Origin: Cliona cf. orientalis
Lineage: Eukaryota; Porifera; Demospongiae; Clionaida; Clionaidae
Reading direction: 5' to 3'
Assembly: GCA_963930775.1 (NCBI GenBank)
Contig: OZ005701.1
Location: 7,633,669-7,697,668, forward strand
DNA: 64,000 nt
Shown: positions 7,496 to 52,564 of the stretch, piece by piece
Numbering within the stretch: position 1 is the first letter of the stretch
How the letters are laid out: each line of letters starts with the position of its first letter
Translations under genes and position numbers: made by a program
Notes under the pieces: generated by a model
Databases searched by the model: none
What the model was told of the DNA's origin: nothing
What the model saw: only the letters and a program-made list of their open reading frames with translations

Positions 7496-10400
7496 ATGGG
7501 AGACTCAAATCAACTGAGTGAGTCTGTTTTAATAATAAATATTACACTCATGGCATGCGGATTTCACTGATTTGCCCGGGCTGGGTGAGTGCTGCAGTTA
7601 ACGAGTCCGACACCTTTCCCGAATCCGAATGCAGCCGCATGCTCGAGCTCAAGAAAAGGCTATCCATAATGTGCCTATATCATTGTTATGCTCCACCTAC
7701 CCCAAATCGGGCCAGATAGGGGATTTTGTAAGCCTGATGGGGCTTGTATCAAGATCTATCCCGAGGGTTGGGGATTTGTACCATGTCTTTTGGTACTGTA
7801 TCTGTAACTTCTGCGCATATTATGAACATCATTTTACAAAGGCCCCTACTGATCCCCTATCTACAATAGGGGACTTTGAATCGAAGAGTTTCCCCTAGGG
7901 TAAGTACTTTGCTAATTTTAAACCCTATATACCCCGACTGGGGTAGGTGCACGTGGGGCATGACATTAATTGATAGGTGCATAATAGTGCAAGCATATCA
8001 CAGTGAGCCCGTACATGTGAATCATTATCATGCATGCATGACACTCGCCTGTGAGCGCGTACTATTTGGAAATTTATAATAATATCATCAACTCTTATAA
8101 TTAACCACAACCATATAAATGGATCTCCAATTCTTGCAAACAAGCTAACTTGGGTAGCGCAATCGATCTAGGTGCATAAAAGCATGCAGTTATCGGGAGG
8201 GGATTGACAGCAAATCATAAGATAGCTTAAGAAATTTAAGCCTCGAAACAAGCAATGAGTACACACCTTGCAGATTTAATTTTTAGCTCTATGAATTATT
8301 TATATGGAAAAACAATACTAGTCGGTGCGTAACTCGGGCATACTTCAACCTTTCAACAAAAAAATTATCACTGAATAGGCCTCACCGAGTGGAAGCTATC
8401 GATACCTTAACCATCATCATGGTAATCGCTATTGCCCCCATAGCAGTTTGCACCATCAATCCAAAAATTAGGTATCCAGAATAACTAGCTATAAGGTAGC
8501 CTTCAATTATGCTAGCATTATATGCATCAACTGGCATAATAATTTTGAGAATTTTAGGGCACACAATAGCTAGTAGCTGTTAATCAACCTTTGTTACAAC
8601 ACCTGGACTACATAATATTAATTAATTTATTACGGACTGGTAAAGGGTTGGTCAATCCGCTGATACCAATTTTTAAATCCGAGCACATGTAAAATTGAAA
8701 TGGCTACACTCAACGATAGTGTAACTGAGTCTCCTCGTGTCTCATCAAGTGTGAATCGACTATATTATAGTTGATTCACACTTGATCATAATGGGCTGCC
8801 CATAATGCATTGGGAATTATAGGTACACTTTTTGAGCATTATTAGGGATTTTTTGAGCATTTGAAAAGCATTATAGGTGAAATCTATGGGGCATGTGTGC
8901 CAGCCATGGGCTATAATTAATAGCTATAGTATTTAAAATCATGATGCTGAATATTATTATAGATGCGTGCATAGCACATGACATTATTGATGTCACCAGA
9001 TATCATGAAAGACGACCCCCCCCCTTAGCTGAACATGCATATTATGTTGCAGCAGTATTATTCATGGATGTATGACACTATGAATAATTATAAAGTGTGC
9101 AGATGTGACAATTTTGATATTCATTGCAATTCTGCACTTGGATCCACCCACATTTCGTACCCATCAAGAATAACAAACAAAATTATTGTGAATAATATAT
9201 ATAATATAGTGCCTGCAATAATAATAATATTATTATAATCAGTGTGTGCAGGTTCCTTATATAATAATATTATTGGAGTGTAGCTATAATACTATAAAAA
9301 TAATGTGGGTGTGAACATTATGCGGCAGTGGTATAGCCATGGCAGTCTGCGAATCAAGATCAGCTGCATGCAGGTATACATGATCCTTATATACATCAAG
9401 AAGCATGCATGATGGATCAAGTGGCTGTAAGAATTATTATTATGATAGTGACTGCAAACTGAGTGTGACATACATTGTATAATCCAGCGATCATGTAATT
9501 ATTATTACGCAGGTATTCATGAAAACTGCACATCTGAAGATTTTCTTTGGATTGCGAGCGTGATCGGATCAAAAATCAGTGAATCAGATATTGCTGATAG
9601 GTACTCCAATCTTGCTGTTTGTCTGGGAATCTCATCTGAGGGCTTAGACATGATTGGAGATGATCATGAAATTATTCAACAGTCCTTTTTACTCTGGAAA
9701 TCAGAGAATGAGGCAGACTTTTCACGAGAGAAATTACTACAGTGTCTTGAACGACTACAGGATTCTTCAGCTTTTATGGAAAAACTTAGGGAGAGATACA
9801 GTAAGTACTATAATAAATAATACTACAGCTATAGTATATAGTCTATATTATTTTGCGTAATACAATATCAATGACGTGCATATCAATTAATAGGTGGGGA
9901 GCCTCAAGTGGCCAATGACTCTTCTGGTATTCTTATCCATTTGGAAGATCAAAACATACCAAGTGGCAATGACTCGAGACCCATTGTGTCACAACCACCC
10001 TCAAACGGTAAGCCGTGCATGCATAATATATAATAATATAATATATAGTTTCATTCTCTGAGGCACTTATCATGCATAGCTATACATGCATGTACTTTCA
10101 GCAGACCTAGTGGAGTTGGATCATGTAGCTTTCTCATCACCTGTACCTATCGAGGAAGCAGTGGGAAAAACTTCAAAAATGTTGGTGTGTGGACAATGCA
10201 CTGATATTCGGAGTGCTCCTGAATGTAAGACACTATAGCTATAGCCTAGTAGCTATATACTGTAATACTATTATTCTTGTGTATATATATATTGTATAAA
10301 ATTGAACTGCATCGATAATTAAACTCAGCATAATAATATTATAGCCAAAATTTATGTTCCTAATTCACTGCAATACTTAAACTACTAACAGTATTCACCA

Positions 10401-13400
10401 AACGTGAAGTTACACAGAAGATTGCTGAAATGGAAGAGAAATTCTCTACTCTCGTTTCCAGTGTGCAGTTGCATTTCCAAAGCTTTCCCGAGGAAGGTAT
10501 TCAGGCCATGAAATCATACCTGACATCACTTTCTATGAGTGTCAGAGAGGATGTAAGTGAATGCGTTTTCACATCCCAGCAAGTGGAGATCATTACTTAC
10601 AGCAAGCTGCCGAAAATTTTTCAATGGCTCACAATAAATGGCATTTGGAGCTTTTTGAATATCTATCTACTGGAAAAACTAGTAGATACCTACAGCAACA
10701 GCGATGATCTGAAGCAGCGTGTTGCTACATTCAAGGAAGAAATGCAACATTTCAAGAAAGACATGAAGCTTGCAGATTTTCTTCCCGCCTGGTCTGGTCG
10801 ATGTCCTCATGTCCCATCAAGTGGATTTGCACCCATCATCCTTCGAGTCAACAAAGACTGGGGTGACTGTACTCTTGGTGATGTTGCAGATATGGAGGGC
10901 TTTCTGGAGAGCAGGTTTTTGATAAATCGGTTCATCCTCCGATTTGCAAATGGTCACTACGGCTCAGTTGTGATCATGTGGCTGGTTCCAGCTCATGCAA
11001 TTGCATATCTGAAGAAAAGGATCTTGGCTATTGGGTCAGTATCACTTACTACTAATCAAGTTGAAGTGAAATTGGGAGGCAACTTCACCGTGAAGGTATA
11101 TAGCCCTATAATTAAACTATATATCACCTTCATGATCTCAAATATTGCAGGCTTCATCAATAAGCATTCAAGAGCCAAATCCATGCACGGCTCCCATCAG
11201 AAGCAGGAAGTCACAGGGTAATAAAGTACAATTCCAACACTGCATGAGGCTTGCATGCATATGGTGCACATTGTGAATCATGTATATTCAACTTTTTCGA
11301 TGGCTTTCCATTATTATAGAACAAATCTCCAAAACTCTTGTGGATTGCGGTAACTATGATGAGCTCTATACAACAAGCACCAAGGATCCTGACTTCTTTT
11401 GGGGTACCCTGGCCAAGCAATTTCTCCAGTGGGAGAAACCCTTTGAGAAGGTCGAGGACTGCAGTATGGAGGAGGGAGAGATCAAGTGGTTCACAGGGGG
11501 AAAGCTGAATGTATCAGGTATTTATAATTGCATTATGCAAATACTCTGCAGCTTATGATGCATAAGAGGACACTACAATTATTATTATATAGGCATTGGT
11601 TTACAGGTACACATTTCAATTCAGTATTATTACTACCGAAAATGACTAATTGCAATTAGGAACCTGAAAATTTCCCCATGCTAATTCATGGTTAATGATC
11701 TATAATAATTATAGAAAAGAGGTATGAATCTTAATTAGATAGCCATAATCATAATATGTATTCAGGGGTAGATTTATCTATACTAGGGTCAGATCATGAC
11801 AAGTGCATGCCGCTGAGATAATGATTCCGCAGCATCATTATTAAATTTTGTGTATAGTGAACTGTGTTGACCGCCATGCAAAGGAACATCCCGATCGTGT
11901 TGCTCTCATCTGGGAGAAGGATGAACCTGATCAAGCAGAGCAAGTTACTTACAAGTGAGTATCATAATCACCTATAGCTAGTAAGTAGCTATAAAAATCT
12001 GCATGCACAATAATGCTCCCAACTGTTCATAGCTGTAGCTATAATATTATAGGTAGCTATAAAGAATTTTTAATACTTGGTAATTGCACATAGCTCCATC
12101 ATACAGTTGCATAATAATTATTGCATACACAAACAGGAACTATAGTCATGTAGCGTCCCTTATCAATGCCAAATACATGCAATGTCATAGACTATTATTA
12201 ACAGTTACTGTAATGTAGTTAATGGAGGATCATGACAGGTATTGATGTTCCGGAGACGCCCAATCTGATTAAAATAGCAGAGTACATGCATGTATCCATC
12301 CGTGAATTAGTGTAATTAATGATGAGATACATGTAGACTCTAATACACATCCATACCTGGTGTGTATGTGCATGTATATAACAGAGAGTTGCTTCAGAAG
12401 GTCTGTCAGATTGCCAATGTCCTCAAGAGCAGAGGAGTCAAGAAAGGAGACATTGTGGTTATCTACATGCCAGCATGCCCACTGACTGTTGCATCCATGC
12501 TGGCTTGTACAAGGATAGGTGCAGTCCATAGGTATATAAAATCATGCTTACTTGGACACAATAACAGCTAGTGAATTTCACAATAATATACCATGCAGTG
12601 TGCTATTTTCAAAGTTTGCCTTGGTTCAAGAAGATCAAAGGGCTAAAATACTGAAGGAAAGAACAGCTGGAGGTAGAGCATAGATTATAATACGGCGAGA
12701 TATCAGTTACTGATCATATTATTATTATAGCCAAAGTGATCATTACTGCAAACAAATCTCAACTGAGTGGCAGAGTTCTACCACTGAAAGAGAGCCTGGA
12801 AATTCTTCTTGAAAGCTCTGATAGCATTCAACATGTTTTAGTGTATAAGAGAACTGATGCAGAAGTAACTATGAAGCCAGAAAGAGATGAGTGGCTTGAA
12901 GAGGTTAACAATTATTATTCCTTTCTACTTCTATATGGGCATGATCTCATTATAATACTTCTACCAATAGGCAATGGAAGAACAGCCTACAGAGTGTGAA
13001 CCAGAGTCCATGGATAGCGAAGACGATCTCTTTGTGATGTTTACCTCAGGTGTTGAGAAAACCGCAAAGGGGATCGTCCACTCACAGGCAGGATATTTAC
13101 TTCATGTAGCTGTCACCTTCAAGGTATGTACCATGCATATAACTACCGGTAGTCTCTGTTTTCAATAATGTACGTTAGATTAGCTTCCCTGGAACACCCC
13201 TGTGACAAATCAATGCTGTCACCTGTGGCACTCGATCAGTTCGATGCTCCAGCCATCAGGCCCAACTCATCATCATAATCAAGCAGTAGCTAGGCTAAGC
13301 ACTTTGTGTACAAGTCCCAAGATTTCAAGTGTAATATTTACATCCAACCTTGCTCCTGGGGGTTTTGGTAGCTCAACTTGGAATCACACCGGAGGTGTGA

Positions 13401-15310
13401 GTGTATGGGTTCAAGTCCTGAGATGTATATGTAATGATATTGTTTACTTTATAGCTAATTTTTATACAATGTCATACTTTGCATGCAGTATTACTTTGAC
13501 TATCAACCTGGTGAAATCTTCGCCTGTACCGCTGACATTGGCTGGATTACCGGACACAGCTATGTAGTTTATGGACCACTCTGCAATGGTGCTACAACAG
13601 TACTTTACGACAGTACAGCGCTGTACCCAAGTGCAAGTATGTACAAATTATATAGGATATTTTAATAGCTAGCTGTATTATTATGTGGCATCCCAATCTA
13701 TCATAATAGGTCGTTTCTGGGAGGTAGTGGAGAGGCTGAAAATCAACCACTTCTACACAACACCATCAGTGATACAAAAGTTGATGTCACTTGATAAAGA
13801 TATTCCAAATTCATTTGATTTATCATCTCTCCGAGTCATTGCTTCAGGTGAGCAACGACTTATTCATAATAATATTAATAATTCAATTGTCTTGATTATT
13901 TCTAGTTGGTGAATGTTTGAACAAAGAAGCTTGGAACTGGTTCCACAAACGATTTGGTGATTGTAAATGCCGTTTCATTGATACTTGGTGGCAAACTGGT
14001 ATATCATAACAAGATATATAATAATAATAATAATAATATAAGGCTGTAAATGTTAATTAAATTCATTTTTTGCATAATAATATATATAGAGCTTGGTGGT
14101 ATTGCAATTGCTCCTCATCCAAAATTGGCTGTGCAAGAGCTCAAACCTGGATTCATCATGAAACCTTCATTTGGAGTGAAGCCCCGCCTATTAATTGATA
14201 AAGATGTAAGTTGCTCAAGTCTATACACAATGATATGTATTCTAAAGCTAGTCTAAATTAATTGTCTTTGTACTAGATTGATCAAAAGGGAAATGAAGCA
14301 ACTGGAAAGCTTTACCTTGAAGCTCCTTTGCCAGGAATGGGGAGGCGACTAACTGGCGATGAGGGTCAAGAGCTGTTCAAGAAGGAGTACTTCACAGGTT
14401 GGCTGTATTATGGTATAATTAATTAATGATTATAGTATCTCACAATTTTGAATAGAAAAACATGATGGAAAAACACTCTACTACACCTCCGATGTAGCTC
14501 ACAGGGACAAGGATGGTGACTATCAAATATACAGCAGAGCTAATGATGCCATCAGGTATCGTGGAGAATTGCTTAATCTTCCCATCATTGAAGGAGCTGC
14601 AGTAAGTTATGCAGGATAATATCAGCCAATGATTAATCTCACAATGTCATCAGAATGTGAGCCACGAAAGCATAGAAGAGACCGTGCTGGTACTAGATCT
14701 TGGCAACATAAAAGAAAATGCAACAACATTGGATGGTAATCCTATATATACCTTATTATAGCATTATACCAGGCCCACTGTTCGCAGTCTGATTCCCAGC
14801 CGATCAGAATGCAACATTCAAAAGCTGGGAATGCATGCAAATATGGGCCTGGGATGATGCTGCTGCAATAATAATTATATCCCTGGTAATAATAATAATT
14901 ATTATTATTAGATTTTTTTTTGTCATAAAATAATAGAGCCAAATGTAATCGCACATGTCCAACTGAAAGATGCTCTCAGTCCCAATACAGAAGAAGATGT
15001 GATGTTCAGTGTTCAGGAATCGATAGAGCAAACTTCTCGAATAGAGAAGGTAAGCAGTTGTATCAGCACCATTAAATTACTTTATGGCTACGATTTTATT
15101 GGTGTACAGAAACACTTGCAAGTTAAAATCCACCAAGAAGATAATATGTTTATACGCGGCAGGAAAACATTCTCAGGAAAAACAACACGACAAGCATTAA
15201 TGAGAAATAACCCCGACTCAGATGCCGAGTATGATCCACTTGAGGACAAATTCCAAGCCTTGAACCAGGGATATCCTTTTGTGCCTGCACCATTAGTTTC
15301 TGTAAAATAA
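7496..15310 (+). CDS. Death domain - unknown module - acetyl-CoA-synthetase-like protein, copy A
   Basis: The 21 coding exons sum to 3318 nt, giving 1105 residues. The first exons are 7496-7517, 9513-9800, 9894-10007, 10102-10224, 10392-11095, 11151-11217 and 11320-11517; the rest run from 11858-11954 to 15110-15310. Residues about 8-103 look like a death domain ([20 protein letters not shown], later a conserved Leu-Trp). Residues 104-182 are a Ser/Pro-rich linker, 183-417 the unrecognised module, and about 440-1105 an ACS-like adenylation domain. ACS landmarks: [62 protein letters not shown], a Lys in [12 protein letters not shown] (about 1063). Oddities: the phosphate loop reads [11 protein letters not shown] instead of YTSGSTGKPKG, TGD is TSD, and the GR..DD..NVSGH segment is [13 protein letters not shown]. 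The linker after the adenylation core is short. Loss of full ACS activity is therefore plausible. An AATAAA lies at 15424. The first intron is ~2 kb. Copy B at 21218 confirms the model. Confidence 0.85.
8744..8786. repeat. Hairpin in intron 1 of death-ACS copy A
   Basis: ATCAAGTGTGAATCGACTAT and the inverted TTGATTCACACTTGAT meet with almost no loop, forming a ~43-base near-perfect palindrome. No protein or regulatory role can be read from it. Confidence 0.7.
14767..14859. mobile_element. Small hairpin element in a late intron of death-ACS copy A
   Basis: CCAGGCCCA...CAGTCTGATTCCCAGC and GCTGGGAATG...GGGCCTGG are inverted. It belongs to the CCCAGGCCC family. The matching intron of copy B (27199-27260) lacks it, so it inserted after the duplication or was lost from B. 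Confidence 0.65.
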
Positions 15311-15509
15311 CTTGACTTAATTTTAATATGTTTTGTTTTTAAACAAGAGCTCACTTCTTTAAAACTTAGTGTGTAAATAATAGTTTGTATATCGTTGTGA
15401 TAACAATTATTTATAGTGAGGTTAATAAAATTATCATACCGATACTAATGCCATGGTGATGAGTGGGCGTGGGTAATAGTGTGATAAATATATAGTGCCG
15501 CTGTCAAAA

Positions 15510-16280
15510 ATGGCTGGTCTTCATCATCAAGAAGCTATGGATGTACTCCAAAAGAAAATTTTTCATGGAGAATAATTTGAGTTGCAATTTATGTGTCCTG
15601 GGCTGTCAGCTAGGACTGGAAACCATCAGATCTACTGCCTCCAGACCAATCTCGCCCCTATCAGCAGCTACTGTTTCATGTTCTCTCCAAATACAGTGAA
15701 AGAGAGCTTCTATCATGGATTAAGTTAGCCAGTACTTAAGAAAGCCGACTCTGAAGCAGTATATATTGCAAACAAGATATGCACTACGTATGGGATTATG
15801 ACTGGGTCCTCGGAATCAGCTAGATCCAGGGTCTTTAGAGAGTTACATTAAATTTTATGTATTCTACTTCAGACGATAGAGCCAGAAATTTCAGAAGAGC
15901 ATCACATCAGCTTGTCTCCCGAGGTTGAAAATCCTCAAGGTGGTAAGGAGTTTAAGCTGTACTATGCCTAACTCTAAGGCACGCTGCACTTGTAGCCACA
16001 TGATCTGTTCCAATATGGATCATATAACTCTTCATTATTACACTATACATGTTGCTATTGGGGATGAATTGTTATAATATGATACCGGTAATATTATAAG
16101 GTTGATAGCCAAGAGCATCACAAATATGTGACAGTAGCTATAATCAAAAGGAAACATCTGTTCACCAATCTAGATAATTTGTTCTTTCAGCATCTAAACC
16201 TCTACCTTTGCAATCCATTTTTGAAATTACCGGCAATGGTCAGCAATATCTCTGGGAAACGCCTACAAGATCTTGATGGC
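15510..16280 (+). pseudogene. Broken copy of the death/ankyrin gene (5' exons)
   Basis: ATGGCTGGTCTTCATCATCA at 15510 matches the start of the intact gene at 46721. The match runs through its first exon with base losses that break the frame. A remnant of exon 2 lies near 15875-15950 and the start of the module exon near 16108-16210 (CATCACAAATATGTGACAGT against CATCATAAGTATGTGATCAG). No ankyrin exons follow; the sequence passes directly into the second DNPEP copy. Confidence 0.75.
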
Positions 16281-16934
16281 ATGGTAGGACAGCGTAAGAT
16301 GATATTTATTTTTGACGACCTTTACCGACAGTTACGTGGTTGATTGATGACCCTCCTGACCCTGTACCGACTCAGTATCATACCCAATTGAAACGCTATA
16401 CCAACTCGAGGGTTCCTATTGTCTCTACTGTAGCTCATGTAGCTTGTCCTGATCCAGTTGAGAGAACTCAATTACCAGGCAACTGTCATGTAAGCTTCTA
16501 TTAAATTATTTTAACAGTACAAATTATGTGAAATTACCAATTTCAAGTTTAGTTTGTGTGTGTATATTCTTTGTAGGTATCTTCTTCTCATAACCGTGCA
16601 TTGATTCATCTGATGACTCAGCAACCCGGAAGATATTTTGGAATTTGAACTCTGCCTCGCTGACGTGCAACCAGCAGTGAGGAATTTCCCATCCCTCTCT
16701 CTCTCCTCTGCACCCCAATCTCAAAGGATCGGGTGCTGGGGACGAGGCGATCTTTCTCTCCCTTCTTCCCTCTGTTCCGCTCTCCATTTCTCAGCCTCTC
16801 TCCCCTCCCATGCAGACACTAGGTGGGGCTATGCAGGAGTTCATTTTTGCTCGAGCTCCACGAATCGACAATCCCATGAACTGCTATGCTGGCCTACAGG
16901 TACATGTAGTTATAATATTGATTTCCAATACCAC

Positions 16935-20637: not shown

Positions 20638-21217
20638 CCTCCATGCATGGAACTGCCATGGCTTCAATGCTATTAACTCAGGATTCTGTAATAATAATAT
20701 TATTATTATTATATTATTAAGCCCTTGTATATATCATTCTTATAGTCTGTGATCTCATAATAATTAAATTAATAAATAATTATTATCGCGTTAAGTTGTT
20801 GTCACGATCTGCATATCATGGCATTAAGAGTATAATAATATTATTATTAAATTTTTATTATTATTGCAACTAGCATACCGGTACTTGGAAATGGGATACT
20901 GCATGCTAATATTAATTTACTGGTAATCATGACATTGTACAAGTTATAATAATAATATTATATGTTTAATATGAACTGTACTAAAAAAATCTTGATAAAC
21001 TGTTAGTATTCAATTTTAGAGTAGTACACTTTTAAGTGTTGCGCATAATTATTATAGCTGTTTACGCTGACTCGGCCACTCTGTCCCAAAATTAATACGC
21101 ACTATTATACGCGCATGCGTGCATATTAAATAATGACAATACTATTGTACGTGCAGAAGGTCAACATCACTAGCTGAGTTCAAGCCGGTTAAAGAGCTAA
21201 AATTGTTGGCAAAGATG
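20638..21217 (+). promoter_or_regulatory. Intergenic region upstream of death-ACS copy B
   Basis: 580 AT-rich bases with TAATAATATTATTA runs between the DNPEP-copy stop and the ATG at 21218. It should contain the promoter of copy B. No TATA box or shared block with the copy A upstream region is evident to me. Confidence 0.35.
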
Positions 21218-24200
21218 ATGGGTGATCAAGATCAAGCGTGTAAGTCATCGATATCATCTCTCACCGAGGGACGAGCAAATTGTGTCATTCATAATTTATA
21301 TTAGCAGCTAGATCGTGACCCTATAATATAGCCTCGAGCTCGTGGCAGCCGCTCTCGCGTAATGTTAAGCACTAGTGCGCCTTCATAATATTATAGATGC
21401 GCATAGCTAGACTATAATATACGAAGATCTGGATTGCTGACTCGATTTGAAAGTAGCGTCGCCTGAGCCTTGTGTATCATCGCATGCATCAGTGCAGTAA
21501 CCTGAATTATTGGCAAAATCAGTGCATGTACCTCTAGATCTATTATTAAAAACAGAAAACTTTAGGACCATGGATACTATTAAAGCACCATCTATGCCGG
21601 GTAGTAATCTGAGGGGAGCGCCTGTCAGGGCCGCATCGTGCTATTCTTCTCCAGTGAGGCGTGCATGGCAGAGTGGGTGTCCGGATGCATGCCATTATGA
21701 TATTATGATTCGCCATACTATGGATTCGCCGAATACAATATTATTCATGAGCTCTGCATAATTATTATGATGAGGGGGAAGATATTATGTGGCTACTATA
21801 ATCATTGTTAATGTGGGAGTACATGCAGGTCATGCATATTTACTAGTCAAGCCATTAAACAGTACAGCTGTCAGCAGTCACTGAGGATCGACACGCCTGC
21901 AGATCTCTCACACAGTATAATAAATGTCTGTGCATGAAAGCTTAGCCTATAGATTGTGCATGTAGCAGTATACTATTCAAACATGCACTGCATAGTTGTG
22001 ATAAGACCGGCCCTGGCTTAAGTTCATCATGATAATCATTATAGTTAATTAGCTGTATCAAAATAATATATTATTATATTTAATTTATTATTATACCAGT
22101 TAAAATTGCACACAGGTACTTCAAATTCTGCAACCGGTTGCAAACAAGAATTACTTTCCCTTGCTGGTGAAATAAGTGGCCACGTCAGTATTTCTGACCT
22201 TGCTAGCTATAGATGTCTGGGAATCTCTTTGGATGATGTTAACTTAAATGCAAGTGATACAGATAGAGATAAAATCTACACACTATTTTCACTGTGGATG
22301 TCAGCAAATCCTGCAGAGGGCTCCATGGCCAAATTACTAACTCACCTTGAGAAGTTGAATAATGCTTCAATTGACAACATTATCAAGAAATATCGTGAGG
22401 GTAAACATATCATAAAATAGAGTATACTATGATATTATTATTATACCTATATGCTGCATGTGCATGGTACATAGCTAATAATTAATTTTATTAGTATAAT
22501 GCATGCATGCACTTCAAGTTAAATTACTCGGAAATTCCATCATGCATAGGAAATGTTATGTGTATACATCTGTTTCCATGCATTTAATAGCTAATTAATA
22601 ATAACTTATAAATGGAGTAATGGATTCCCATATTTGTATACTTGTAGAACCACAGCAAGTATCACTGAGTGAAGCGAACACTCTGAGTGCAAGTCACTGT
22701 AGTGGTCTTAGTCTTCAATGTTCAGCTGCACCAAGCAGTGGAAGTAGTATCATTGAATCCAATCCAATATTATCAGGTATGACCATAAGCATGATTTCGA
22801 AGGAAAAAATATTATGTTATATAGCTAGCTACCATTCACCCATAAGCTCAAGACTGAGTTACAATAAAAATAATAATATTATTATTATACTATTATTATA
22901 CCCTATAGGGTGCATGAAAATGCATTCTATAGACAGTCGCATAGTAAAGCTAGTGGTGCATGCAGTGGGGGAAATGCATCCTGATGTCTGCATGGTTAAA
23001 GTTTGTGATTTGTTATAGAGATTTGCTGAACATGTGTCAGCATTATGAGCTACTGTGCAACACTTATGTATAGTGCAGGTGGCCCCTTTTCCGTGAAATA
23101 TTATATGACAGATGCATGCATATTCTGTTTGGTCTGAGCATTGATTGCCAATCTCGAAGCTTAAAATGATAGCAATCAGAATCCCTACACTATACACAAG
23201 TGTCGTAGTTAATGACCTTATAGATGACCTATATTCATAGTATTGATTCAGAAGCTAGCTAATAATACGAAGCAATGCAAATAAACAGCTATAGTATTTT
23301 GTGCAAACTGCTGGCTATACCAGCCAGTACCAGAAGGATGTTGGTATCACAGGGGAATTAGACAAGCAGGGCCAATGAATTCGAAATTGTCAATAATTAT
23401 ATCATGCACTAAACACAGAAGACTCAGAGAGAATGGAACGGTTCCCATTAGGAGTGTGTGCTTCTGTGGCAGAAGCTTCAGGATTGTCTGGTGTTTCTCA
23501 GCAGTTGATCTGCAGTGGTCAACGTACGGATCACCTTACCATGCGAAGCAAACCCGAGAGTAAGAAATGCATGTATAGTCCTTCATAACAATTATATTTT
23601 ATAGGTATAGTGACAGTTATAGGTGACTACACGCAGCAATAATTATCATGCATTATTGTATTATAGCATTTGCAAAAGTTGATGTAACAAGAAAGATTGA
23701 AAAAAAAGAGAAGGAATTCTCTAATCTGTTATGCAATGTGCGTCGGCATCTCCAAGCAAACTGTACTGAAGAAGATATTCAAGATATGAAGGTCTACCTT
23801 ACATCCCTCTCTATGAGCATCAAGGAGGACACCAGTCCTCGTATTTTCACATCTCAACAAGCTGAAATCATTGTCTACAATACCCTACCACAAATATTCC
23901 AGTGGCTGACTCTCAATGGCTGTTGGAGCTTCTTAAATTTCTACCTCCTGGAGAGTATAGTAGATCGATATGGCAACGATGACTTGAAACAGAAAGTCAC
24001 AAAATTCGAGGAGGACATGGAAATATTCAAGCGAGACATGAAGCTTGCAGATTTTCTTCCTGCCTGGTCTGGTCGATGTCCTCATGTTCCCGCGAGTGGA
24101 TTTGAGCCTATCATCCTCCGAGTCAACAAAGATTGGAAGGACTGTACCCTAGCCAAAGTCGCAGAAATGGAGGGCTTTCTGGAGAGCAGATTTTTGATCA

Positions 24201-27200
24201 ATCGATTCATCCTCCGATTTGCAAATGGCCGCTACGGTTCTGTTGTGATCATGTGGCTTGTCCCGTCTCATGCAATTGCATATCTAAAGGAGAGAATCAT
24301 GGCTATTGGTACTAAGTCATTCAGTGAGGAAGGAATAGTTGAGATGACATTCAGTGATAACCTGACTATAAAGGTAAGTGTAATAGAGATAGTTGATAAA
24401 CAATATCATCATAATAATATTATATTATGCATAAGAGCAAGCATCATCCAGAATTCAATGACATGTAGAATGTTTACAATTTTGTACTTGCAGGCATCAT
24501 CACTTGAACTTCAGCCCAAACCCTGCACTCCCATAAAAAGCAGTAAGATGTGTACTATTCCATTTCTATACTGCATGCACGCTAAGCCTTACAAATTTGG
24601 GGATTTCAGAATCACTACAAAATGGTGAAAAAGGTTTCAAAACACTTCTGGATCGTGGTAACTATGATGAGCTCTATGCAACAAGCACCGAAAATACCGA
24701 TTTCTTTTGGGGCACCCTGGCCAAGCAATTTCTCCAGTGGTACAATCGTTTTGAGAAGGTTGAGGACTGCAGTATGGAGGAAGGAGAGATCAAGTGGTTC
24801 ACCGGGGGAAAGCTGAATGTATCAGGTAGTTAACTAAAATAGCTATGAACTCACTATTATATTCACTGCATGGTATACGTACGAAAACATATAGAGTTCC
24901 AATATTAAATGATATCTTCATAATTATTTTTCTCCAGTGAACTGTGTAGACCGTCATGCAACAAAGTACCCTGATCGAGTCGCTCTCATCTGGGAGAAAG
25001 ACAACCCTGGAGAAACAGAACGAGTGACGTACAAGTAAGTGTGAACCTTTTACAAACTTTGATTTAATTGTTCACTGTGTCTGTGCATACGACTTTTGTA
25101 GAGAGTTGCTCAAAAAGGTTTGTCAAATTTCCAACGTGCTCAAGAGCAGAGGAGTAAAGAAGGGAGATACTGTTGCTATCTACATGCCAACATGCCCACT
25201 AGCTGTTGCATCCATGCTGGCCTGTGCCAGAATCGGTGCAATCCACAGGTATACTGATTAATTGATGATGTTGGATCAGGAAACCAACTATTACAACATG
25301 ATTGTGTGCATGATCAATGCAGCGTGCTATTTTCAAAGTTTGCTTGGATAGAAAACGAAGAGGAAAGAGCTCGATTTCTGAGGGAGAGAATTAATGGAGG
25401 TTGGTAGCTACAGTGATATTAAAAGACATTGGAAATTAACATCCACAATGTCATATATGTAGCCAAAGTAATCATCACTGCCAATACGTCCCCCTTAAGC
25501 GGAAGAGATCTACCACTGAAGGAGAGCCTGGAAGTTATTCTTGACAATCCGGACAGTGAAATTCAACACATTTTGGTGTATAAAAGGACCGATAAGGACG
25601 TACCAATGAAGCTTGGAAGAGACGAATGGCTTGAAGAGGTTTATCATCATAGTTAATTATAACTCCATACTGTCACACTGATTCATAATTATGTCACCAT
25701 AGGCAATGGAAGAGCATCCCACAGAGTGTGAACCAGAGTCCATGGATAGCGAAGACGACCTCTTTGTGATGTTCACTTCAGGAGTGACCGGGACGGCAAA
25801 GGGAATCGTCCACTCGCAGGCAGGATATCTACTTCATGTTGCTGTCACTCACAAGGTAGCTAAAATATTTAGTTCTCATGCGCAGGAAAAGCTATATAAT
25901 TATATTTGTGATACACATAATATGTGCAGTATTACTTTGACTATCAACCTGGTGAAATCTTTGCCTGTACCGCTGACATTGGCTGGATTACCGGACACAG
26001 CTATGTAGTTTACGGACCACTCTGCAATGGTGCTACAACAGTGCTTCTTGACAATACAGCCACATACCCCAGTGCCAGTAAGTAGATGATGATCAGCTGA
26101 TCAGCTAGGGTGCATATGCACAATAATAATATGATGTGGTAATTTATCACTTGTTCATTTTTACTATAGCTCGTTACTGGGAGCTTATTACGGATCTTGG
26201 TATTAACCATTTCTACACCACACCATCTGTGATACAAAAGTTGATGTCACAGTGTCATGATAAAGGACTTCAAACTGCTTATGATCTACCATCTCTACGT
26301 ATCATTGCCTCGGGTATAAAAATATTATTATAGGACCTAATATAGCTAGCTATTTCTATTAACTGACAGTACATCGAATATACAGTTGGAGAATGCTTAA
26401 ACAGTGATACTTGGCAGTGGTTCCACAAGAACTTTGGTAATGGAAAATGTCATCTCATTGACACATGGTGGCAAACAGGTACAATTATTGACTTTGTGAT
26501 ATCGTTCAGTTACTAGCTATATACAATGTCACACAGAACTTGGAGGAATTGCCATTGCACCACATCCAAAGCTCAGTCTCAAACCTGGATGTATCATGAA
26601 GCCTTCATTTGGAGTCAAACCCTGCCTGATTAATAAGGATGTACGTAGCTAGCTAAATCAATCTTTTACTTCTATATCATAGCTACATTGTTGTGTTATT
26701 ATGTGGCATAATTGCATGTGTTTGTAGGAAGAACAAGCAACTGGAGAGCTATATCTCGAAGCTCCTCTACCGGGAATGGGCAGGCGGTTAACTGGTGCCG
26801 CTGGACAGGAGACGTTCAGGAATTATTACTTCAAAACACTTAGTAAGCTATGTAGCTACTACTAGTATTAATGCAATTCATTCGCAGATATAATACCAGC
26901 TAATGTAAACAAAATTTAATGCCTACAAATTCTAACAGAAAAGCTGGGAAAGGTAGTCTACTACACCTACGATATAGTCCACAAGGATGAGGATGGTGAC
27001 TACCAAGTCTATGGCAGAGTCAACGATGCTAGGTACCGAGGAGAACTCTTGAATCTTCCTTGTATTGAGGGAGCAGCTGTAAGTTAAAATTAGTAAAACT
27101 AAACACTAGCATTCAGGAATGATTGCTATAGAATGCAAGCCATGTAAGCATTGAAAAGACAGTATTGGTAGTGCCACCAGACAATGAAACTGCAGAAGGT

Positions 27201-27650
27201 ATTAAAGGCACTGGCACAAAGTTTACCAGGCTTAACATTATCATATAATTATTGATTTAGAGCATGAAATAGTGGCTCATGTCAAATTAAAGGATAAACT
27301 CACTCGGAAAGAAGGAGAAGATGTAAGTCGCAAGGTCAAAGCGTCAATAGAGAAGATTTCTGGATCTCAAATCAAAACGGTGAGACATGCATGAGCAGTA
27401 GCTATTGCTATAATACGAGAGTCAAAAGTAATTGCTGCCATCATTCAACATTCAGAACAATTTGAGGGTCCAATTATATGACAAAGAAGAAAAATGTGAC
27501 ACAGTGTGTAGCAGAGAGACTTTTTCTGGAAAATTCAAAAGACAATCACTGAGAACCAGTACCAAGGAGCTCAGTTATGAGTGTCAACCTTCCATACCCA
27601 GGGATCCATGGAGACAAAGTAGTCAAGATAATTGTGTTGTTGCAAAGTAA
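21218..27650 (+). CDS. Death domain - unknown module - acetyl-CoA-synthetase-like protein, copy B
   Basis: The 21 coding exons sum to 3324 nt, giving 1107 residues. They begin 21218-21239, 22116-22400, 22648-22776, 23419-23559, 23667-24373, 24494-24542 and 24610-24825, and end at 27456-27650. Exon number and all intron phases equal those of copy A. Residues about 8-102 are death-domain-like ([17 protein letters not shown], then [10 protein letters not shown]). Residues 193-428 are the module ([52 protein letters not shown]) and the rest is the ACS-like domain. The phosphate loop is [11 protein letters not shown], closer to the canonical YTSGSTGKPKG than copy A. DTWWQTELGG is kept, the hinge region is altered ([17 protein letters not shown]), and a Lys remains in TFSGKFKRQ near the C-terminus. 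An in-frame ATG three bases earlier (21215) is an alternative start. The role is inferred: a death-fold protein with an acyl-adenylate-type domain as output or sensor. Confidence 0.85.
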
Positions 27651-27769: not shown

Positions 27770-28985
27770 TTTCTTATGGAGAATAACCTGAGTTGCAATT
27801 AATGCTGTCGGAGTGCTGCCTGTCCCTCTGTGCACAGTGTCCCCTCCCCCCAGACACTCTGCACTCTATAGAGCCACGTATTCCCCCAGACGTACAGCCT
27901 AGTATCGGTTCCTCTCCAGTGTTGTGCGTCCCCACACAGAGAAATAATATGGGTGGGGAGGGGGGCCGGGGAGCACCCCACTATAGGCTTAGTGCAAAGA
28001 AGAGGGCTAGCTAAGCTCCCTTGTGCTGGAATAGGTGTACATATTTGTATGCCATTACACAGTCACTGTTAAAATTATTATACTTTCATAAGCACTCGCT
28101 GCATGAAGGTCAAAACTTTCAAAATTTCCTGTAGGAGCATGCCCTCAGAATATTATCTTTGAAATAAGCCTGAGCCCTTGCACGTACACATCCTCTGCCC
28201 TTGTCAAAGATGATCACAGCAAGGAAAAATATAGGAAGAGATCGAGACCAAGACAGCACCTTATTGTGTGTACTACCATGGAGTGTACAAAGGAGTCCCC
28301 TGGCCTGGTCAAATGCCATTCATGCAATTTCATCAATTATTTATCAATCATGTTTGAATGTTGACTACAACCAATACAGCTAACTTTTTGTGATTCCTGC
28401 CACTTTGATTTAGCTAGCTACCTAGTCATTTATGCCATGAAGGCTGAAATTTACTGATACTGTATGGGGACATTAACCAAGGGTCAGCTACGCCAGACTA
28501 AGGGGACACATTGCCCTAGAAAGGACACGTGGTTCTAGTGTCAAATGTCCCAAGGAGACACCCTACTCTAGCTAGCATGTGAGGTACATCCCCAGGGACA
28601 TACTGCTCTAGGGTAGCTACAGTGTCCAGGGGGACAACTTTAGGGGGGTCATGTGACACTATGACAACGCGTCCAGGGCTGCAGCTAGGATTGAAACCAT
28701 CAGATCTAGACACAGTACTATCTCTGGATCAATCCTACCCCTATCAGTATCTACTGCTTCAGATTCCCTCTAAATGCAGTGAAGGAGCCTCTACTGATCA
28801 TGGATAAAGCTAGCCTGGCAGTGTTCTAAGAAAGCCAGCACTGAAACAGTATAGAATGGCAAGCAAGATCATGTGAATGGGTCCTCGGAATCAGATTCTA
28901 TTGCTTCTTTGCAATTGCAGTCACCTAGGTCTGGATCTTTAGAGAGGTCACTGACATTTATGTATTTAATTTCAGACGACAATGC
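27770..28985 (+). pseudogene. Second relic of the death/ankyrin gene first exon
   Basis: Bases 27776-27800 (TATGGAGAATAACCTGAGTT) and 28670-28985 match the first exon of the gene at 46721. The match is split by ~870 bases of unrelated sequence. In-frame stops and indels are present (for example CATGGATAAAGCTAGCC where the intact gene has CATGGATTAAGTTAGCC). It follows death-ACS copy B, as the relic at 15510 follows copy A. Confidence 0.7.
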
Positions 28986-29775
28986 ATGTAACCATATACA
29001 TATATATATACCGGTATGTATAATAATAGCACATTATCTATAATATACAACACTATCATGCATGCATGTGCACGACAGACAGAGAGAGAGAGAGGATTCA
29101 TATAGTAGGTAAGGGTCGTCGGTCGAAAGGGAGGCTAAACATAGGGTGTGATTGTTAGTTTAATAGGTACAAAGGCACTGTGCATGCCCCTGGCTCACCT
29201 ACTCAAGTGCAAAGCAGAAGATATCTTAGAGAATTTGAACTCTGTCTTGCTGATGTGCAACCAGCAGTAAGGAATTTTCCCTCCTACTCCACTCCTCCCC
29301 TCTTCCCTCCATCCCTCTCTCCACTTTAATTTCTCAATCACTTTGTCTTTCTCCATTCCCATCCAGCCTGACACTATATAGGTGGGGCTATGCAGGAGTT
29401 TATTTTTGCTTGACGTATTGATAAAAATCTTATGAACTGCTATGCTGGCCTACAGGTAAGTACACAGTTGACCAATAGCATATGTTGTGGTTTGCCACTG
29501 ATGGCATATAAATAGCTTCATCCCTCAGGCCCATTCCAGTCTGCTAGCATGATTATTTCAAGTTCTGCATAAATGCCCCTCAGATCTTTAATGTTATAAT
29601 ATTTATGAGCTTTTTTTTTTTTTTTTTCTCAAGGAGACCAGAACACTAAGCAGAAAAAAAATTGTCCAAAACCACCACATAGTTGAGCTGGATGCTTAGT
29701 AGAGCCGTATAATGGGAGATTCTTCATATAAGCTTCCGTGTGATTACGTAATGCTTAAATATATAGTGCATATAG

Positions 29776-35495
<5,720 letters not shown>

Positions 35496-46720: not shown

Positions 46721-49700
46721 ATGGCGGGTCTCCATCATCAAGAGGCTATGGAAGTCGATCATCACTGTACTCCAAAAGAAGCTTTCGAATTTTTCACGGA
46801 GAACGATTTGAGTTGCAATTTACGCGTCCTGGGCTGCCAGCTAGGATTGAAACCATCAGATCTAGACACGCTACTGCCTCCGGACCTATCCCACCCCCCG
46901 TCACTGTTTCAGATTCTCTCTAAATGTAGTGAAAAGGAGCTTCTGTCATGGATTAAGTTAGCCAGTGTTCTAAGAAAACCGGCTCTGAAACAGTATAGGA
47001 TTGCAAGCAAGATATGCACTACATACGGGATTATGATTGGGTCCTCGGAATCAGATTCAATCGGTTCTTTGCAGTCACCTAGGTCTGGATCTTTTGAGAG
47101 GTCACTGACATTTATGTATTCGATTTCAGAAGATAATGCAGGTGAGCTCTCTAAGCATAATATACCGCAGAAGCGTAGGAAGATAGTTTGATAAAGGGGG
47201 CGCACTAAGATCTATAGGCAAGGGCTACATAATCCATAAAATTAATTATATCAGAAAACATAGGGAACACTGGACCCCGGAGCCCCCATGGTTCCTACGT
47301 CTATGTACCGGCACAGTATCAGATGATTACTGTATGAAAGGCGACTATATTATTATTTATAATACTACTATATATTGTACATGTACCCAAGAGGAGAGAG
47401 AGAGAGAGTGAGTGAGAGTTGATTCATTATCATAATCAATACACAGAGCCAGAAATTTCAGACGTGGTGAACGAAATAGCTGATGTGAATGATTGGGAGC
47501 AGTTGGCCATCTCCCTGGGACTAACCACTAACGATATTTATCTCATAAAGCAGTATGATCGCAGAGAACATCACCAGCGTCTAGCTGAGCTGTGGTACAA
47601 CAGAGCTCTGGATTACTCATGGGGCAAGCTTCGAAGGGAATTGGATAAATTCTACCCCAGACGAGCATCAGATGCATCAGTGACCAGCTGCCTATCTCCT
47701 GAGGTCGAAAGTCCTCAGGCTGGTAAGGAGTTTATGCTGTACTATCAGGAGTACATGTATTACTATACTATATTATTATAATACATGTATGCTGCATATG
47801 TAACCACAAGGTCTGTTCCGGTGGACATAACTCGATCTTCATTATTATGCACCTGTACACTATACAAGTAACTGTTGTTGTTAGGGATGCATTGTTACAG
47901 ATAAGGGCTTGAACTATGACCTTTCCATACTTGTAGCTGTGAAGTTGCAGGTGGAGGAGTTTGAAAGGAAGTTCCAGGACCTCATTATCGATGCAAGAAG
48001 GGAACTGGAGGAAAGACATAACTCACGGGGCGTGGAAATTGTGAAAGACAACTTATCGTCTTTACCAAGATCAATAGCCAAGGAGCATCATAAGTATGTG
48101 ATCAGCATCATCAAAAGGAAGCATCCATTCACGAATCTAACACTGTTTTTCGAACATCTAAACCTGTACTGCTGGAATTTTCTCGAGTATCACGTGCTGG
48201 AAAATCTTATCAAAAGCAAATGCAGCGAGGAGTTAAGGGGTGAAATGTCCAAATACGCTAAAGATATAGAGAGATTTCGACAGAAAACGACAATTTCTGA
48301 CTTTATTAAGTGTGCACGCCACCTTGTAAAAAAGAAAACGATTCCACCACGTTTTAAGAAAGTAACTTTGGAGCATGCTATCAATCCAGACAACTACACC
48401 CTTGCCGATTTAGATGCCTTTCGAAAGGATACACTGGAATCACTTCATCTGAAGCTATCAGAATGTGCTTTTCAAGTGTACAGGATTAAGCACGGTAGCG
48501 TTATCGTAAAGTGGATGATTCCTGAAGATTTTGCAGGATCTCTGAGTGATTTCTTCAACAGTGACGCTGGCTTAGAGTTATTGCATAAGCATCAAGTAGA
48601 GAAACTTAAGATAGATAAGGACACAATTCCAATTCAATCAGTAAGTGTGTGTGTGTGTGTGTGTGTGTGCACATGTGTACATGTGTATACGAGTACTAGC
48701 ACAATTTTATGATAACATTCCAGCGATTTTTATTAAGTGCTGCGAAGAGAGGTGACTTACAAAAAGTTCAATCACTTTTAGAAGATGAAAGAACTGACGT
48801 AAATTATCAAGATTCAGTAAGTTCGATGTTCATGCATGACCAAACTTACTAGATCTACGTACACAAGGTATTTGTGTGACAGACCACCACCTGACCAATG
48901 GTATGTGCTCCGTGGAGGTGGCCTGTATGCTGGGCAGATACCAATCACCACACTCTGATTAGGGAGAGCACTGTGGTCTGGGCTGTGCACATGACCTTTG
49001 GAGTGTGGGCATTAGAGTATTATTCCTTTGATGATACAAGTATATACTTGTATCTACCCTTACTGACCTCCCCACCCCCCCCCCCCCCTTCCCCAGTAGG
49101 CATACATGCTGCTTTAGTAAATCACAATAGCTACATGTAGTTCACCTGTTAACCTTCCTAACTGAGAAATTATTTCCAAATTACTCTCTACTATACCTTT
49201 TTGTTTGTTGAACTGCAGGCTAGATATACAGCCTTACATTTTGCAGCCAAGGAGGGCCATGTGGAAATTTTAGATCTTCTGCTGAAGAAAGGCTGCAACG
49301 TGAATGTTACAGCAGGGGTACGTTCACTACACTAATCTTAATAGCTTAATTGAGAAGCATACTATCAGTCTGCACGAAGGGGTCAAATTTCTTATTCGCG
49401 CGGAAGTGAATCACGCACCCGGAAGTTAATTTACACTATGGGGATTTTGTATGGGCGAATTCCAACATGGCTGACAGAATAGGCGGTCAACTCGAGCCGA
49501 CGGTACGTGTCAGCAACGTCGGTGCGAAGGGTTTTGAGCCAAGCACTGGTTGTAACAACTATATTATGAGCTACACGCAATCGTTTCAAGAGTTGTCCTG
49601 AGGTAGGTTGTGTAAAATAGCTCTCCTGCTGCTGCCACTATCTGCAGGGATCCTCATTTCAACATATTTCAGAATTTTTGAACATATACTTGCACGCCTG

Positions 49701-52564
49701 CGATGGACCTAAAACTTGGTACAGGACTTCAATACCATAATATCTACAACATACTTTCTTCAAGAGATACAGGTTGGCCCTAGTTGGGATCTGTGAGGTG
49801 CATAAAACCGAAAATTTCCAATATACTCAAGGCCCCCAGTCAGAGCCTACCCAATGCTGATGGCTGGATTAAATGGATGGTCTTAAGATTCTGTCCTAAC
49901 ACTCTACAGGAGAACCAACCCCGTATTCCAATTCACAACAGTTTTCGAGTGATGGTCTATTTTGTACAACACATTTGGAGATTTTTGTGTCTGGAGCATT
50001 TTCAGAATTTTTGAACATGGGGAAGACAAGCAGCCAATCTTTCAAAAACACCAGTGTAGATACATTACAACCAGTAGTTTAACATATGTTATAGCTGAAT
50101 CTTGATTGTTTCTATTTGTAAGGGATTTTTTGGTATCAAATCCTGATTTTTGTAATATGGTGCACTTGGCTCCCTTGACCCCTGCCTGGCCCGCTGACCT
50201 TTTTGGCGGTGGCGCTAATATTAATCGTAAAAACGCGCACAACCGTATACAATCACGTTCATACAACGAGTGCGCAATATATTATCATGAATGCGCATAC
50301 GTTGGCGCTCGCGCAATACGCTAGCCCTAGGCGCATGCGCCTGGCAACCAAAGTAAACAACATACTTCCTGTACAAATAAGAAAGTATATGGAAAACGTG
50401 ACCCCTTCGTGCAGACTGTATGGCACTGAATAAAAGGCCGTAGAGTAGATATTTATCTAGAACTTAAAATTAATATGACATTGTAAGACACTCTGCTGAG
50501 TATATATGACAAGCCACAAGTCCAAGTCTGTAGTACCAAGAAGCCATTACACATTGTTTATGAGGACCTTTTATGATCTGATATATTATAGCCAAAGGGA
50601 TGCACTCCCCTTCAACTGGTGTGCCTCGAACGTGATAAGCCTTCCAAGAGACGTGCTGAAATGGTCCGGCTCCTTCTCGATTATGACACAAAATTATACG
50701 TTGAGGATACAGTGAGTCTCATATAATAGAGCATGACCTACAAACTCAATTCATAATTAATGTACCATAATATTCAGGATGGTAGAACGCCATTATTTGC
50801 TGCGAGCAGAAGTGGATTTGTAGATGTAGTCCAGCTGATCCTTGAAAAAGTTAAAGAGATGCCCCAAAGAAAGCAGCGAAGGGCACTGAACCACACAATG
50901 ATGGTGAGATCACTTTACAACCAACACTAGCTTCTTGGTAGCTACACTAGACTGTAACTTGACTACATGTACCAGTATAATATTATTATGATCCTATACC
51001 CAATTCCTGCCAACACTTTGTGTCCACATCAGTTAAAAGAAAACCACCTTTATTAATCTGAGTGCTCCAATTAGTATTGCATTACACGTGTGCATACTTG
51101 ATACTGTATTATTATAGCTAGGACTCGATGCCTATTGGAGCCCCTTGCATTGGTACCTTACACCTTCTGTTAAGGTGGCTGGTCCCACCTGCTTTGGCAT
51201 CTACTTCATCAAGTTTCATGTATACACACGTCAGTATGTAAATCAAATTTATTCCAGAATGGTTGGACGCCCATCATGGATGCTGCAATGCACGGACATG
51301 CTGAGGTCATCAAACTCCTGCTAGAAGCAGGTGCCACTGCAATCAAAACCAAGGAAGTCAGTCAATTAATGCATGGCTTCAAAGCTACAGCTCTCTATTG
51401 TAATGTATCATGCACACAGATGTTCATGTAGGGTTGGGGGGTGGGGTGGAGTGAATGAGTTAGCTAGTCACCCACCTTCGACACATAATTCTCAATAGAA
51501 TAGGACATGGTGTGCTATTGGTATATAGGTATAGACAGCCACCAACAGTTCAGTAATTATGGTAACAGGCACCCGCCCTATAACATTTCTGGAACAGTCC
51601 TTGCATTACCCTCGTCCCCAGACCCTCTCTCGATCTCCCAGCTTTTAATGGTGCACGCAAGAAGCAGGAGGAACATTAGAAGCTGGGAGATTGAGAGATG
51701 GCCTGGGGACGAGGCTACCCTTGCATTGTGATTCTTAGTTTTCAAGGTGCGACTCTAATTATATATAATGGTTCATACTCTACAATCTATACACAGGATG
51801 ATGAGACAGCTCTGCACATAGCTGCGTACCACGGCCACGTTGATGTGGTCAAGGTGCTGACAGCAAATCAGGACAGATTCGTAATCAACGCTAGAGATCA
51901 AGTAAGTCTATATATTATAGTACATACTGGTGGTGTACATACCACATAAAGCATTATTATGGATGCTCTCCACCCTTGAGCTCTAACTAAATCACTGCAT
52001 ATCCTATTAATTGCTGTGTGTACTATCACCTACACAGTATGGCTTGACCCCTCTGATGATGGCAACCATGCATGGGAAGGTGGCAGCTGCTCATGTTCTC
52101 CTCGAGGCTGGAGCTGACGTCAACTTACAAAGCAATGATGTAAGATCAAATCAATAGGGCCAGATGATAATAATATTATATCTGTACATATTATAATAAT
52201 ATTGTAATATCATACCCTACCCTTGCAGAAGGAGAGACGGACAGCGCTCATGTTTGCTGCAAAGAATGGAATATTCTCTATCGTAGAACTACTGATCAAG
52301 TTCAAACCAGACGTCAATATCAAAGACTCCGTAAGTTATCATATTGAGTATTTAAAACACTGTTACAGTACCCACCTTATTCACTATGTACAGAGCAACA
52401 AAACTGCTTTCGACTTGGCAAAGAGTTCTGAGATCCGACACTGTCTCAAAGTGGCCCCGGTAAGACAATAAGCAGAATCAGCCACTTCATTTCATTTCTT
52501 ATTTAATATTATTTTGTTATTACAGGAGACCACAAGGAAGGAACAAATTGGTGTTACAAGTTGA
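46721..52564 (+). CDS. Death - death - unknown module - ankyrin protein
   Basis: Thirteen exons: 46721-47141, 47447-47722, 47937-48640, 48724-48816, 49219-49317, 50592-50711, 50778-50903, 51258-51356, 51797-51901, 52038-52139, 52229-52330, 52394-52459 and 52526-52564. The sum of 2352 nt gives 783 residues, all joins in frame. Residues about 15-95 look like a death-fold domain (PKEAFEFFTENDLSCNLRVL, then LLSWIKLASVLRKPALKQY). Residues about 141-230 are a death domain (DVNDWEQLAISLGLTTNDI). Residues 233-467 are the module shared with both death-ACS genes, and about 468-770 ankyrin repeats, nearly one per exon (TALHFAAKEGHVEILDLLLK; TPIMDAAMHGHAEVIKLLLE). ATG at 46721 has a good context (CATCATGGCG). 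Intron 5 contains a TIR element (49366-50418). Likely a cytoplasmic signalling adaptor; partners unknown. Confidence 0.88.
48641..48668. repeat. GT microsatellite at a splice donor
   Basis: About 12 GT units start at the donor of the module exon (GTAAGTGTGTGT...). Length variation here could affect splicing of the death/ankyrin gene. Confidence 0.8.
49366..50418. mobile_element. 1.05 kb TIR element in ankyrin-gene intron 5
   Basis: CAGTCTGCACGAAGGGGTCA at 49366 and TGACCCCTTCGTGCAGACTG ending at 50418 are perfect inverted 20-mers. The flanks share TAT on both sides, a possible 3-bp target duplication. No transposase frame is visible. The terminal CAG...CTG resembles several cut-and-paste families, but I cannot assign one. 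Confidence 0.85.
51600..51727. mobile_element. CCCAGGCCC hairpin element with apparent target duplication
   Basis: CCTCGTCCCCAGACCCTCTC pairs with GAGATGGCCTGGGGACGAGG, and CTCCCAGCTTTTAATG with an inverted relative AACATTAGAAGCTGGGAG. Outside, CCTTGCATT occurs on both sides (51599-51607 and 51719-51727), suggesting an 8-9 bp target-site duplication. This is the most informative copy of the family. Confidence 0.75.

Follow-up and report, generated by a model that had tools for sequence, protein, structure and literature searches.

The closest described relatives of the genes reported here are the Death/TRADD-N proteins of Amphimedon, where, according to the main text of Kaur et al. (2021; PMC8195603), 357 proteins contain a TRADD-N domain of the NCOA6 clade, and the majority of the architectures consist of one to three Death-like domains, TRADD-N and a variable C-terminus. 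Ankyrin repeats are among the commonest of these C-termini, which also include SH3-LRR, kinase, MATH, SH2, PDZ, caspase, PNPase and HD, and expanded TRADD-N proteins were reported from other marine animals as well. The TRADD-N superfamily has an RRM-like two-layer alpha/beta fold with a small-residue-Ser motif in the beta2-beta3 turn, is typically present as a single copy between two globular domains, and was proposed to hold the two flanking domains inactive and to be reconfigured once one of them senses a signal (PMC8195603). Here we analysed a stretch of 64,000 nucleotides (the window) from Cliona cf. orientalis (assembly GCA_963930775.1, contig OZ005701.1, positions 7,633,669 to 7,697,668; coordinates below are those of the window). 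In this window, two tandem paralogues, copy 1 (7496..15310, + strand) and copy 2 (21215..27650, + strand), probably encode single-chain proteins composed of a death-like domain, a TRADD-N-like module and an end derived from AMP-forming acetyl-CoA synthetase (ACS).

Like the Amphimedon proteins of the published account, the products of copies 1 and 2 have an N-terminal Death-like domain, a middle part with a predicted RRM-like order of elements and a Gly-Ser turn, and a variable C-terminus, and occur in several copies; they differ in that the C-terminus is ACS-like. A third, related gene in the window (46721..52564, + strand; 13 exons, 783 amino acids) encodes an N-terminal exon without a Pfam match, a death domain, a one-exon module and ankyrin repeats (Ank_2, E 1.4e-67), and fits the published Death/TRADD-N/ankyrin type. 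Its module, a 704 nt exon, is a distant homologue of the copy 1 module (20% identity, tblastn E 6.5e-08), a homology that rests on tblastn, as hmmsearch with the module profile was circular for a sequence contained in that profile. The original prediction stated that no described family has the architecture of copy 1. This is not supported in that form, since the combination of Death-like domain, TRADD-N and variable C-terminus was already published (PMC8195603); the architecture class is known, and the ACS-like end is the unusual part. Neither acetyl-CoA nor CoA synthetase, AMP-binding or adenylat- is mentioned in the main text of PMC8195603, whose source-data tables may list an example, and nothing recognisable as a Death-ACS fusion was found in the open-access literature searched. 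Two relics like the ankyrin gene were also observed on the + strand, one at 15496-16343, of which 16107-16292 matches the third module (50% identity, E 7e-11), and one at 28583-29040, which resembles the N-terminal exon of the third gene by eye alone.

The model of copy 1, rebuilt by hand from splice signals, exactly reproduced the predicted 21-exon frame of 1105 amino acids, with GT-AG at 20 of 20 introns and an AATAAA at 15424, 3' of the stop. All of its parts lie on the + strand. The death-like domain is encoded by exon 2 (9513..9800, residues ~9-103), a variable linker with 36% amino acid identity between the copies by exons 3-4 (9894..10224, phase 1-1 exons), and the entire middle module by exon 5 (10392..11095), in which a helical part from residue 184 to about 316 is followed by a TRADD-N-like part at about 317-418. 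Exon 6 (11151..11217) is the joint between the module and the ACS-like domain, and exons 7-21 (11320..15310, residues ~440-1105) contain the ACS-like domain, as indicated by Pfam, PDB and TIGR02188 matches. The death-like start and the ACS hallmarks at the end that had been predicted were recovered: one ACS motif starts at residue 735, DTWWQTE is located at 841-847 and SGK at 1061-1063, and Pfam found ACAS_N and AMP-binding, with the death domain below its cut-off. Copy 2, which was located by tblastn of the copy 1 protein on the window and then modelled, has 21 exons, 1108 amino acids, no stops, the same architecture and its own P-loop variant; no AATAAA was present within 300 bases 3' of its stop. 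The introns of the two copies have the same phase in 20 of 20 cases and fall in the same alignment column in 17 of 20, which bears out the earlier claim of a second intact copy with matching intron phases.

The joint at exon 6 indicates that in each copy a single gene very probably fuses the death-like to the ACS-like domain, and two other explanations of the locus were weighed against this. That two adjacent genes, one Death-module and one ACS, were wrongly joined is highly improbable. Copy 1 does provide points against the fusion, as its intron 6 holds an in-frame ATG and, just inside, an AATAAA at 11220 that could end a short transcript. However, the identical joint is found in both copies, and intron 6 spans only 102 bp in copy 1 and 67 bp in copy 2, which leaves little room for one gene to end and another to begin. 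Exon 6 (67 nt in copy 1, 49 nt in copy 2) has phase 0 in and phase 1 out in both, and together with the start of exon 7 (residues 419-440) it shows 60% identity over 20 codons between the copies. Intron 6 of copy 2 contains no A[AT]TAAA, nor does an in-frame ATG occur in the stretch from the last stop to exon 7; two separate genes would there have to place both an end and a start within the 67 bp. Two separate genes were rejected on the short intron, the matching exon and the recurrence of the joint, despite the ATG and AATAAA of copy 1, and the fusion, present in two copies, is most likely no gene-model artefact, as originally predicted. Very little weight is likewise given to decaying duplicates. 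The degenerate motifs described below and the relic of a related gene at 15496-16343 would suit pseudogenes, but both copies retain full-length, stop-free frames at a proportion of synonymous differences (pS) of 0.57 and a dN/dS of 0.24. Because neutral frames would be expected to be broken at such silent divergence, yet both are open, the pseudogene reading was rejected on the open frames and dN/dS.

Comparison of the copies over 1072 codons by the Nei-Gojobori method gave a pS of 0.566, a proportion of non-synonymous differences (pN) of 0.215, and an overall dS of 1.05. The dN/dS was 0.47 in the death domain, 0.38 in the linker, 0.176 in the module, 0.24 in ACAS_N, 0.153 in the AMP-binding core, 0.146 in residues 903-1000 and 0.27 in the last 105 residues; in several of these parts, silent sites approach saturation (dS 1.4-2.3), which makes the ratios there rough. 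From the low dN/dS between the copies, both halves of the fusion look to be under selection. Nucleotide identity between the copies was observed to be uneven, at 0.86-0.91 in exons 7, 12 and 13, 0.42-0.55 in exons 2-4 and 0.51 in exon 21, and ACAS_N had a dS of 0.375 compared with 1.05 overall. Local gene conversion between the copies in exons 7, 12 and 13 is possible.

A death-domain fold is probable for exon 2. Although its structure model is weak (pLDDT 61, pTM 0.42), all 13 best Foldseek matches were death-domain proteins, mostly FADD or Fas-FADD, with a best E value of 0.19 and none reaching 0.001. The best match was the death domain of human FADD (probability 0.99, TM 0.65, 19% identity); FADD also carries a death effector domain, which was not seen in copy 1. 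The Pfam Death profile PF00531 scored 13.8 bits (E 0.068) against the whole copy 1 protein, 19.0 bits (E 0.0015) against exon 2 alone, 16.8 bits against copy 2 and 20.4 bits (5.5e-4) against the third gene, and its cut-off of 22.6 bits was reached in none of the three genes. The profile search of the N-terminal part for which the original prediction had called gave a Death match that lies below the cut-off and no TRADD-N match.

The middle module is a single exon in all three genes (704 nt in copy 1, 707 nt in copy 2), entered in phase 1 and left in phase 0 in each, and it is placed beside a Death-like domain between two globular domains, twice as Death-module-ACS and once as Death-module-Ank. 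In the AlphaFold2 (AF2) model (pLDDT 66, pTM 0.68), helices within residues 3-133 of the module are followed by strand-helix-strand-strand-helix-strand and two extra short strands. This beta-alpha-beta-beta-alpha-beta order matches the RRM-like fold, with blocks at pLDDT 48-66 in that half. A Gly-Ser, which would correspond to the uS motif of TRADD-N, is located between predicted beta2 and beta3 (10961..10966, + strand; model strands 183-186 and 192-199) and is invariant in three of three modules. The original prediction regarded the module as unknown. As the Death/TRADD-N/variable-end frame has been published and such an ankyrin gene is present in the window, this is probably not so, and together with the element order and the Gly-Ser turn, the second half of the module is quite likely to be TRADD-N-like and a putative member of the superfamily. 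Several results speak against this assignment. The best Foldseek E value was 0.13, with no TRADD among the 50 listed of 416 matches, and pLDDT was 48-66 in the TRADD-N-like half and below 50 across much of the beta2-beta3 turn. No Pfam TRADD-N match (PF13820, PF09034) was obtained in the three genes at a maximum E of 10 with HMMER filters on, hhalign of the module, as a query profile of three sequences, with human TRADD-N gave a probability of 0.13%, and hmmsearch of the PDB with the TRADD-N-like half gave two matches (E 0.65 and 0.86), neither of them TRADD. Of the structure predictions that had also been called for, that of exon 2 gave death-domain fold matches, and that of the module gave an element order from a weak model. 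Human TRADD is comparable in that this one adaptor carries both a Death and an RRM-like domain (PMC8195603). The modules of the window have no sequence match to it. In human TRADD, TRADD-N comes first, and the domain order is thus reversed relative to copies 1 and 2.

The origin of the C-terminal half is supported by several searches. Profile search of this half, proposed together with that of the N-terminal part, gave ACAS_N (8.2e-20, 70.8 bits, residues 452-508) and AMP-binding (1.1e-69, 235.5 bits, 510-902) in copy 1 and the same two domains in copy 2 (63.0 and 244.3 bits), all above cut-off. Residues 444-987 align to PDB acetyl-CoA synthetase chains (best 5.2e-141; 1pg3 1.7e-140), and TIGR02188 aligns to copy 1 nearly to the model end with 621 bits, below its cut-off of 724.95. 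AMP-binding_C was not found in copy 1 (maximum E 1) or copy 2 (maximum E 10). Compared with Salmonella enterica Acs (PDB 1PG3; TIGR02188), copy 1 shares ACAS_N and AMP-binding, the acetate pocket and the catalytic-lysine motif, and differs in the score below the TIGR02188 cut-off, in replaced P-loop, hinge and presumed CoA-side residues, and in the added death and TRADD-N-like parts.

To describe kept and replaced residues, both copies were compared with 33 bacterial ACS loci (L004-L006 and L010-L039, with L007 and L008 left out), drawn from one search that matched 55 of 60 genomes at 58 places and provided 30 loci, and another that gave five loci. The frame filter D[TS][WFY]WQTE dropped none of the 33, and the conservation of W414 and E417 is thereby built into the set. 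Invariant columns were kept in 8 of 8 cases in ACAS_N, 11 of 26 in residues 938-1000 and 9 of 20 in residues 1001-1105. The acetate pocket is kept in both copies (I740, T741, V816 and W844), as are G524 and the five residues (E, G, D, R and K) that are described in PMC6122825 as invariant in 374 adenylate-forming enzymes and were mapped here by motif (E847, G895, D938, R953 and K1063 in copy 1 numbering). Five of the eight short-chain-specific residues given in the same paper were checked, of which W414, W395 and F163 are kept and M141 and T278 lost.

Other positions are replaced in both copies (S. enterica numbering): S267V, P271A, G499S/Y, D517N, S523R and H525E, and also G164S, G165K, R191L, M141A/T and T278Q. 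All 33 bacterial ACS share D517, G165, R191, S523 and H525, and we take G165, R191, S523 and H525 to be CoA-binding positions. R526 is changed to L in both copies, but it is variable in bacteria (23 R, 10 N). The bacterial P-loop TSG[ST]TGxPKG, of which T268, G269 and P271 are present in 33 of 33, is matched by neither copy; copy 1, whose degenerate P-loop is located at 13043..13072 (+ strand), additionally has T268E and G269K, whereas copy 2 keeps the T and G. For one ligase, the residue at the D517 position, an aspartate, is described as important for the thioesterification state (PMC6122825). At 52 positions, both copies have lost the invariant residue, and at 38 of these they share the new one, an indication that much of the change predates the duplication; the proportion (73%) is only slightly higher than the 66% of the other ACS columns (324 of 488) that are also identical between the copies, and this comparison counts against an early origin. 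We read the ACS-like end as either a putative adenylate-binding sensor or an altered enzyme rather than an ordinary acetyl-CoA synthetase. The acyl-adenylate chemistry that had been suggested is uncertain, with the P-loop, the hinge and the presumed CoA-side positions replaced.

These features lead us to a tentative mechanism, in which the fusion protein would act as a metabolite-gated switch of a death or immune complex. With the acetate pocket and adenylate-binding residues kept, the ACS-like part may still bind a small acid, AMP or both, and would no longer make acetyl-CoA by the ordinary two-step reaction. Whether a ligand is bound would determine where its mobile C-terminal lobe lies, and the TRADD-N-like domain, located between both ends, would relay the state of the lobe and free or hold the death domain, which, once freed, could recruit partners by like-with-like assembly. 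With a putative ACS-like sensor on one side of the module and a death domain on the other, the architecture would fit the TRADD-N proposal of Kaur et al. A more specific form, somewhat unlikely as it stands, is that an ACS has turned into a receptor, in which acetate or acyl-adenylate binding would gate the death-fold complex through the TRADD-N-like relay and might report short-chain acids or the energy state, perhaps acids from microbial symbionts. Two points weigh against a switch of this kind: ligand binding by the ACS-like part is deduced from sequence, and the last ~85 residues, including SGK, lie beyond the PDB alignments, with K1063 equated to K609 by a MAFFT alignment and motif.

Two other functions were considered for the ACS-like end. 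An active effector, in which death-domain clustering would switch on an ACS-like enzyme that makes acyl-adenylate or acyl-CoA and thereby raises local acyl-CoA or depletes ATP or CoA, is unlikely, although it has several points in its favour: the position of the catalytic lysine is kept, as are the five residues invariant across the superfamily, the P-loop T and G are retained in copy 2, and enzymes (caspase, PNPase and HD) are known as C-terminal effectors of the Death/TRADD-N architecture (PMC8195603). It is difficult to reconcile with P271A and the hinge change D517N in both copies and T268E and G269K in copy 1, as other family members are severely inhibited when the glycines and proline of the P-loop are mutated (PMC6122825), or with the mere 34% identity of the last 105 residues between the copies. 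Alternatively, the ACS-like end could be a ligand-free scaffold or bait for protein contacts, for example one that recruits ordinary ACS or that ACS-targeting invader proteins would recognise. We consider this quite unlikely. It would account for the change, in each copy, of 60 of the 161 columns invariant in the bacterial ACS (37%), compared with a mean of 1.0% and a maximum of 9.0% for a left-out bacterium, but the comparison set is purely bacterial, so some of the 37% reflects ordinary distance; the sparing of the acetate pocket and adenylate-binding residues also argues against it.

We also searched for relatives elsewhere. No relatives were found in viral contigs searched with the module and ACS alignments, and a search of a collection of genome contigs gave three bacterial loci. 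Among 292 genomes from a single bacterial phylum, PF13820 gave one match at E <= 0.001 and none above cut-off, and the profile of the TRADD-N-like half gave matches in 26 genomes at E <= 0.1, the best (1e-4) in a stop-containing frame; 12 of the 29 places matched by this profile fall in frames of 1083-1093 amino acids. PF20712 was dropped as a route to bacterial TRADD-N, as no usable TRADD-N was found in the frames of 13 of 30 loci.

Several other features were observed in the window. The region 55084-63999 (+ strand) contains tandem units of ~1.8 kb, with repeat families of two or three copies that are 70-97% alike and frames for similar-looking helical domains of ~95 amino acids, none above Pfam cut-off and the likeness of the first frame judged by eye. 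A NACHT domain (63139-63999, + strand; PF05729, 2.1e-21), cut by the window end, is located 3' of these units, and the whole may be a single NLR gene whose N-terminal domains are repeated. A receptor-like frame at 45225-46608 (+ strand), with an Ig-like domain below cut-off (PF13927, 2.2e-4) and a hydrophobic stretch seen by eye, ends just 5' of the ankyrin gene, and a possibly similar frame without a Pfam match is present at 40475-41038 (- strand). A GC-rich minisatellite of ~5.6 kb (29830-35479) is built of 18/45-base units, with later units approximating their reverse complement and an additional 154-base period.

Metabolite binding by the ACS-like part, if real, would couple a death-fold platform directly to the acetate or adenylate state, a connection that was not found in the open-access literature searched. 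Even without a ligand, the ACS-like domain would be a new kind of C-terminal partner for the Death/TRADD-N architecture. The presence of the module as one exon with phase 1 in and phase 0 out in all three genes suggests an exon-level plan for swapping the end domains.

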